Source of the DNA: Nitrospiraceae bacterium | Lineage (GTDB): Bacteria; Nitrospirota; Thermodesulfovibrionia; UBA6902 | Length of the DNA: 56,631 nucleotides | Direction of reading: 5' to 3' | Assembly: GCA_020356065.1 (NCBI GenBank) | Contig: CP070632.1 | Span: forward strand, 1,145,030-1,201,660 | Shown here: piece by piece, positions 45,077 through 46,396 of the stretch | Position numbering within the stretch: position 1 is the stretch's first letter | How the letters are laid out: the number at the start of each line of letters is the position of its first letter | Made by a program: the position numbers and the translations under genes | Notes under the pieces: generated by a model | What the model saw: the letters and a program-made list of their open reading frames with translations, nothing else | Database searches by the model: none | Told to the model about the DNA's origin: nothing

Positions 45077-45192
45077 GTGATCAATGAACATTATCCCAAA
45101 ACCTGCATATCAAACTAATCATGATACAATTGGACATACTCAGAAACTATGGTATAACTTGATATGAAATCATCATGCATAGGAGATAAAAA

Positions 45193-45630
45193 ATGGAGCA
45201 AAATCGGGCTATGCACATTATGACACAGGGTTACGCCTGATCGGAGTCAGTACTGCTGGCCGTGTGTCAGAAATTTGGGCTTGAGAACGAGATCATTCCA
45301 AGGATAGCCACCTGCTTTGCCGGCGGAATCGGTAACACAGGGGCCGTCTGCGGTGCCGTCGCAGGAGCCGTAATGGCTATCGGCCTCACGAAAGAGCGGA
45401 GTAACACCATGGAGGAAATGCTCGGCACTCTGGCAGTGGCGAAGGAGTTTCGTTGCCGCTTCGAGGCAGAGATGGGGACCATTGACTGCAGCGAATTGAC
45501 AGGAGCGGATCTGACCACGCCGGAGGGGATCGAGCAGTTTATGAACTCAGACATACCCCATACAGTCTGCTTTCCGGCCGTCGGCACAGCTTACCGGCTG
45601 GTGAAGGATCTGCTAAAGGATTCCTCGTAG
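45193..45630 (+). CDS. C_GCAxxG_C_C family redox protein, probable selenoprotein
   Basis: Starting at ATG 45193 (AGGAGA ribosome site), the frame reads MEQNRAMHIMTQGYA, then TGA at 45238-45240, then SESVLLAVCQKFGLENEIIP and on to TAG-type stop 45628-45630. Reading TGA as selenocysteine gives a 145-residue protein, the normal length of the family. The residue replaced is the first of the conserved cysteines (G-Y-x-C-[SA]-E/Q-S-V). The rest of the family pattern is present: IATCFAGGIGNTGAVCGAVAG, FRCRF, and IDCSELTG. A Geobacter member of this family is known to carry Sec at this position. A standard caller would start late, at GTG 45262, and lose the active site. A candidate SECIS follows at 45256. 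Confidence 0.85.
45256..45270 (+). promoter_or_regulatory. Candidate bacterial SECIS hairpin
   Basis: CTGGC, loop CGTGT, GTCAG: a five-pair stem (one G-U) beginning 15 bases after the in-frame TGA. Bacterial SECIS elements lie inside the coding region just after the UGA and need a small stem with a G and U in the apical loop. The spacing and loop fit, but the stem is short. Confidence 0.45.
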
Positions 45631-45790: not shown

Positions 45791-46396
45791 ATGAATCTTC
45801 TTGCAATCATGGGAAGTCCTCGAAAAGGTAAAGCTACCGACAGTCTCGTTGATAAGGCAATAGACGGTGTGAAATCTCACTTACCAGACTGCAGCGTTAA
45901 TAAGATTAATTTAATTGAGCATGAAATCAAATTCTGCAGGAACTGCCTTGCCTGCAGGGACAGTAAAACAAACGAACCAGTAGCCAAATGCTCCATTCGG
46001 GATGATATGGACGATATAAAAGAGGATGTCCTCAACTCGGACATTCTTATATTTGGCACCCCCGTACATATGGGATATGCAACAGCAGTCATGATGACAT
46101 TCCTTGAAAGAATTTGCTGGACCTTTGCGAAGCCTGAAAGAACAGTGCTGACAATTAAAGGTTGTCCACTTCCCAGATCGGATAAGACGCGGAAAGCCAT
46201 TATCATTGTTACCTCAGGGATTGTACCTCCCATGTACAGAAAATTTTGTGACTGGGCAACTGACCAGATTAAGGGTGTTGTTAAAGATTCATTAAACGGA
46301 AATATAGTGGGTGATATGTATGCCGGTGATATTGAACACAGAGGAGTTGAACACTATTTTAATAAGGCATTTAATCTCGGCAAAAAACTTGTATAA
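45791..46396 (+). CDS. Flavodoxin-fold NAD(P)H-dependent oxidoreductase / iron-sulfur flavoprotein
   Basis: A 201-residue protein. The FMN-binding loop is MGSPRKGKATDSLV. The Cys-rich segment CRNCLACRD plus the later C in AKCSIRDD is typical of iron-sulfur flavoproteins and related NADPH-dependent FMN reductases. The FMN-contact segment IFGTPVHMGYATAVMMTFLER follows. It likely shuttles electrons between FMN and a small redox partner. It lies 160 bases downstream of the selenoprotein gene on the same strand, so it could be that protein's reductase. This is inference from context. Confidence 0.8.
   Translation: MNLLAIMGSPRKGKATDSLVDKAIDGVKSHLPDCSVNKINLIEHEIKFCRNCLACRDSKTNEPVAKCSIRDDMDDIKEDVLNSDILIFGTPVHMGYATAVMMTFLERICWTFAKPERTVLTIKGCPLPRSDKTRKAIIIVTSGIVPPMYRKFCDWATDQIKGVVKDSLNGNIVGDMYAGDIEHRGVEHYFNKAFNLGKKLV

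Follow-up and report, generated by a model that had tools for sequence, protein, structure and literature searches.

The window, by which we mean the whole 56,631-nucleotide stretch of DNA analysed, very probably carries a gene for a selenoprotein of the C-GCAxxG-C-C family (PF09719/TIGR01909); from the sequence comparisons set out below, we put the probability of this reading at about 0.93. The coding frame is opened by an ATG with a ribosome site upstream, and the TGA at codon 16 is the only in-frame stop before the terminal TAG (Table 1), just as the sequence-only reading had described. That reading also warned that standard annotation would truncate the gene, and this is borne out: at this locus a mechanical ORF list yields just a 122-residue ORF beginning at GTG 45262. 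One might take this shorter ORF, without residue 16, to be the real product, as it matches the ORF call; but the homology, the coding-type pattern of change and the ribosome site all start at 45193, the GTG falls within the loop of the putative SECIS element, and the product would be without an invariant residue, such that we regard this alternative as hardly tenable. Reading through the TGA corrects the truncated gene and adds a divergent Nitrospirota clade to a poorly understood selenoprotein family.

Table 1. Coordinates of the features discussed in the text (window positions unless a genome or locus is given)
Feature	Position	Strand	Basis or remark
Shine-Dalgarno-like AGGAG	45181..45185	+	7 nt 5' of the ATG; read directly
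Predicted selenoprotein gene, C-GCAxxG-C-C family (PF09719/TIGR01909), 145 aa with Sec16	45193..45630	+	Profile matches; orthologues 71-80% identical; 145 codons, ATG 45193, stop TAG 45628-45630
Putative Sec codon TGA (codon 16), first invariant Cys site of the family	45238..45240	+	Codon counts; invariant column
Candidate bSECIS apical hairpin, 5 bp, loop CGUGU	45256..45270	+	Conserved in TGA homologues; compensatory changes at one pair
Cys53 codon (CGA motif)	45349..45351	+	Invariant column
Cys99 codon	45487..45489	+	Invariant column
Cys126 codon	45568..45570	+	Invariant column
FMN-reductase-like (flavodoxin-like) gene	45791-46396		Next to the selenoprotein gene
Second PF09719 gene (L001, P0002)	G000:C1:2007735-2008112	minus	TGA at the codon-16 column
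selD	L024 3202-4113 = G000:C1:1606201-1607112	minus	328.9 bits; itself a predicted selenoprotein, with in-frame TGA and Sec in AGGUAAKLG
selC, 5' half (53 nt, TCA anticodon)	G000:C1:2032116-2032168 (L117 1474-1526)		Followed by a 100-N scaffold gap

Conservation of the TGA codon

The read-through protein is matched by PF09719 over residues 14–139 (E 9.8e-26; 90.6 bits against a cut-off of 27) and by TIGR01909, which NCBIfam entitles 'C-GCAxxG-C-C family (seleno)protein', over residues 14–141 (72.9 bits; cut-off 47.4). The four conserved cysteines of the family, the first of which may be Cys or Sec and the second of which lies in the CGA motif, correspond to U16, C53, C99 and C126. In an alignment of 54 sequences, eight columns are invariant, and these include the codon-16 column (Cys or Sec) together with Cys53, Cys99 and Cys126. 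Across 102 distinct loci (104 rows from whole-genome HMM searches and a database scan, minus duplicates), the codon at the aligned position is TGA in 39, TGT in 34, TGC in 28 and TAA in 1, with no other residue represented; within the 30 loci fetched by HMM, 19 have TGA and 11 have TGT or TGC. The alignment-based database scan matched 72 loci, a set skewed towards Cys and against TGA, because one of the two scan patterns includes the Cys; a scan with the single window protein gave zero matches. The in-frame UGA sits where the family has either Cys or Sec, and the sequence is conserved to both sides of it, in agreement with the earlier proposal that the TGA takes the place of the first conserved Cys and that homology continues past it.

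Three close orthologues have TGA at the same codon and retain the downstream hairpin: L130 (G006 C236; 79% identity), L126 (CP070644.1, from Nitrospiraceae bacterium bin899; 71%) and L208 (G006 C28; 72%). In L126, GGGAGGAG occupies the position matching the window AGGAG. Relative to L126, the window gene has 4 synonymous and 3 other codon changes before the TGA, and 32 synonymous and 36 other changes after it. An in-frame TGA flanked by homology, with frame, TGA and hairpin all kept in close orthologues, is far beyond what chance would produce. Among the 230 genomes of the class, three encode a protein of this clade, which is defined by 71–80% identity to the window protein.

A sequencing or assembly error, with a true codon of TGC or TGT and an ordinary Cys protein, might be entertained given the many 100-N gaps in the scaffolded assembly of the host genome. 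Against this, TGA is found at codon 16 in independent assemblies (the three orthologous loci) and in many other family members, and those with TGA differ from those with Cys in the downstream hairpin. This explanation is already largely refuted, and we consider an error barely credible. The three observations that the sequence-only reading had named as refuting it (a genome without selABCD, a Cys codon at 45238, and homologues with neither Cys nor Sec at the column) all turned out in its favour, with one TAA copy as the exception among the homologues and selC seen as its 5' half.

Decay of the gene through a nonsense mutation is also very unlikely. The observation in its favour is a close copy in the sister genome bin899 (L127 1608-2051, equivalent to L131 6001-6444; CP070644.1, G003), in which the Sec codon is replaced by TAA, a codon not read by the Escherichia coli Sec machinery. 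The TGA has, however, been retained across lineages at an invariant Cys/Sec column; among the codons that differ from L126, roughly half leave the amino acid unchanged (36 synonymous and 39 not); and selA, selB and selD are intact. The TAA copy itself keeps both frame and hairpin, and over 911 bp it shares 96.7% identity with L126, which has TGA. As L126 adjoins a scaffold gap, the pair could possibly reflect a mixture of strains in the metagenome-assembled genome; otherwise, L127 may be a freshly inactivated copy. The TAA copy might also be taken to imply that this genus reads ochre codons, too, as Sec, but this seems scarcely plausible.

The hairpin downstream of the UGA

The sequence-only reading had suggested that a hairpin shortly after the TGA could be a SECIS element. 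The hairpin in question, CTGGC-CGTGT-GTCAG, begins 15 nt 3' of the TGA and presents its loop 20 nt 3' of the UGA, with an MFE of -9.3 kcal/mol. It satisfies the rules of a published bacterial SECIS model, namely, a loop of 3–9 nt, a stem of 4–16 bp, a G within the first two loop positions, a spacing of 16–37 nt and an MFE of at most -7.5 (PMC13188914). Taken alone, the hairpin is not above chance (z = 0.16), 46% of synonymous recodings are equally good, and single-sequence folding was dropped as uninformative evidence for a SECIS. By comparison among the TGA homologues, however, it makes a convincing SECIS candidate. It is kept in five of five close homologues; a helix of four or more base pairs with its loop starting exactly 20 nt after the UGA occurs in 17 of 18 window-type TGA homologues, but in only 9 of 49 Cys homologues, and the loop contains NGU in 18/18 and 12/49, respectively. 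The difference in SECIS geometry between TGA and Cys members has a p-value of 1.4e-8, which is indicative, as the sequences are related. When the same 18 genes were recoded synonymously, the mean number with this geometry was 4.9 and the maximum 11, compared with the 17 observed. Additionally, one pair of the helix shows compensatory change (seven homologues).

Selenocysteine machinery in the host genome

The proposed decoding would require SelA, SelB, SelC and SelD, and the earlier expectation that the host encodes all four holds, with selC present as its 5' half. Both selA (629.6 bits) and selB (353.4 bits) were found in the host genome (G000), near each other and with a transposase gene between them; this transposase-like gene (IS element; L022 6975-8192, minus strand) was recognized by eye. 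The selC gene is less readily found: in the host, no tRNA-Sec was detected above cut-off with the Rfam model, or with ARAGORN, and the Rfam search of its three genus mates likewise found none, whereas 47 of 61 relatives gave Rfam hits above cut-off (some of those at 47–60 bits may be other tRNAs). In the host, selB is followed by a 100-N gap at the place where some relatives have selC. The possibility that the host is without tRNA-Sec was rejected, since a direct pattern search located the 5' half of selC at a different site, where a second gap interrupts the gene. The fragment matches the anticodon-arm pattern exactly and its 53 nt resemble the corresponding part of the relatives' tRNA-Sec, with the 3' half falling outside the assembly; the tRNA searches missed the gene because the scaffold gap cuts it after these 53 nt. 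Elsewhere, the contig of G009 starts inside selC and that of G006 stops just after it, and therefore assembly breaks at selC recur. This is a practical trap, as tRNA-Sec may seem absent when assemblies break within its gene.

On this basis, SelB and tRNA-Sec would decode the UGA of codon 16 as selenocysteine, directed by the hairpin beginning 15 nt 3' of it. The predicted product is a 145-residue, all-helical C-GCAxxG-C-C protein with Sec16 in place of the first of four invariant cysteines.

Predicted structure, function and relatives

An AlphaFold2 model of the window protein is all-helical, with a mean pLDDT of 93.7; a Foldseek search of this model against the PDB gave no fold match at E ≤ 1. 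In the model, helices begin at Sec16 and Cys99, and Cys53 directly precedes a helix, a placement that would favour reactive thiolates. We found no characterized catalytic activity for the C-GCAxxG-C-C family. A role in selenol/thiol redox chemistry (or in metal binding) may be proposed for this small, helical protein, with U16, C53, C99 and C126 as its basis. A redox pair is the mechanism that we are inclined, with some reservation, to favour: within a small thiol/selenol redox site, the reactive nucleophile would be Sec16, whose cycle would pass through a selenenylsulfide formed with Cys53, Cys99 or Cys126.

The main rival to such a redox site is that the protein is indeed a selenoprotein, but that it uses the four Cys/Sec residues as ligands of a metal or Fe–S cluster and not as a thiol redox pair. 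This derives from a distant, short match to the split-Soret cytochrome c (PDB code: 1h21; NF047622), with weak similarity around the CGA motif. Split-Soret cytochrome c holds an extra iron centre. Nevertheless, the matched stretch of 1h21 is just 35 residues long (domain E 0.044), the window protein falls far below the NF047622 family cut-off, and the PDB search with the model gave no fold match; moreover, Sec would be unusual as a structural Fe–S ligand. We consider metal binding possible, albeit doubtful, and return to the thiol/selenol site as the preferred reading. The Sec form provides a good handle on the function of the family.

The suggestion that the flavodoxin-like neighbour may be an electron partner found no support. 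The FMN-reductase-like gene is absent beside the bin899 orthologues and in the short contig stretch around L208, and the contig of L130 ends too soon to count; the candidate was rejected for want of conservation beside the orthologues in bin899.

Sec-containing members of PF09719 feature in published reviews (forms 1 and 2 in PMC13188914; also PMC9312934), and the window protein belongs by sequence to the same family (PF09719; TIGR01909); it therefore adds to an already known selenoprotein family. The examples given in these reviews are other than the Geobacter member mentioned in the sequence-only reading. Unlike the published members, it sits in the small, divergent clade described above. 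The host also encodes a paralogue (L001; Table 1), which is predicted to have Sec at the same column and shares the four-residue pattern, but is only ~29% identical to the window protein and has its putative SECIS loop 23 nt after the UGA with NGG, compared with 20 nt and NGU for the window gene. Among genes of the paralogue type, an NGG loop starting 23 nt after the UGA is present in 22 of 22, and 20 of the 22 have the helix, against a null mean of 0.8. In a quick tree of 98 proteins, parsimony gives at least 13 changes between Sec and Cys, of which well-supported branches force only 2. Two observations concern the family more widely: each of its two types keeps the candidate SECIS loop at its own fixed spacing from the UGA (20 nt with NGU in one, and 23 nt with NGG in the other), and one paralogue-type TGA gene (L129; G002 C176) is apparently split over two frames, either by a frameshift or by an assembly error.
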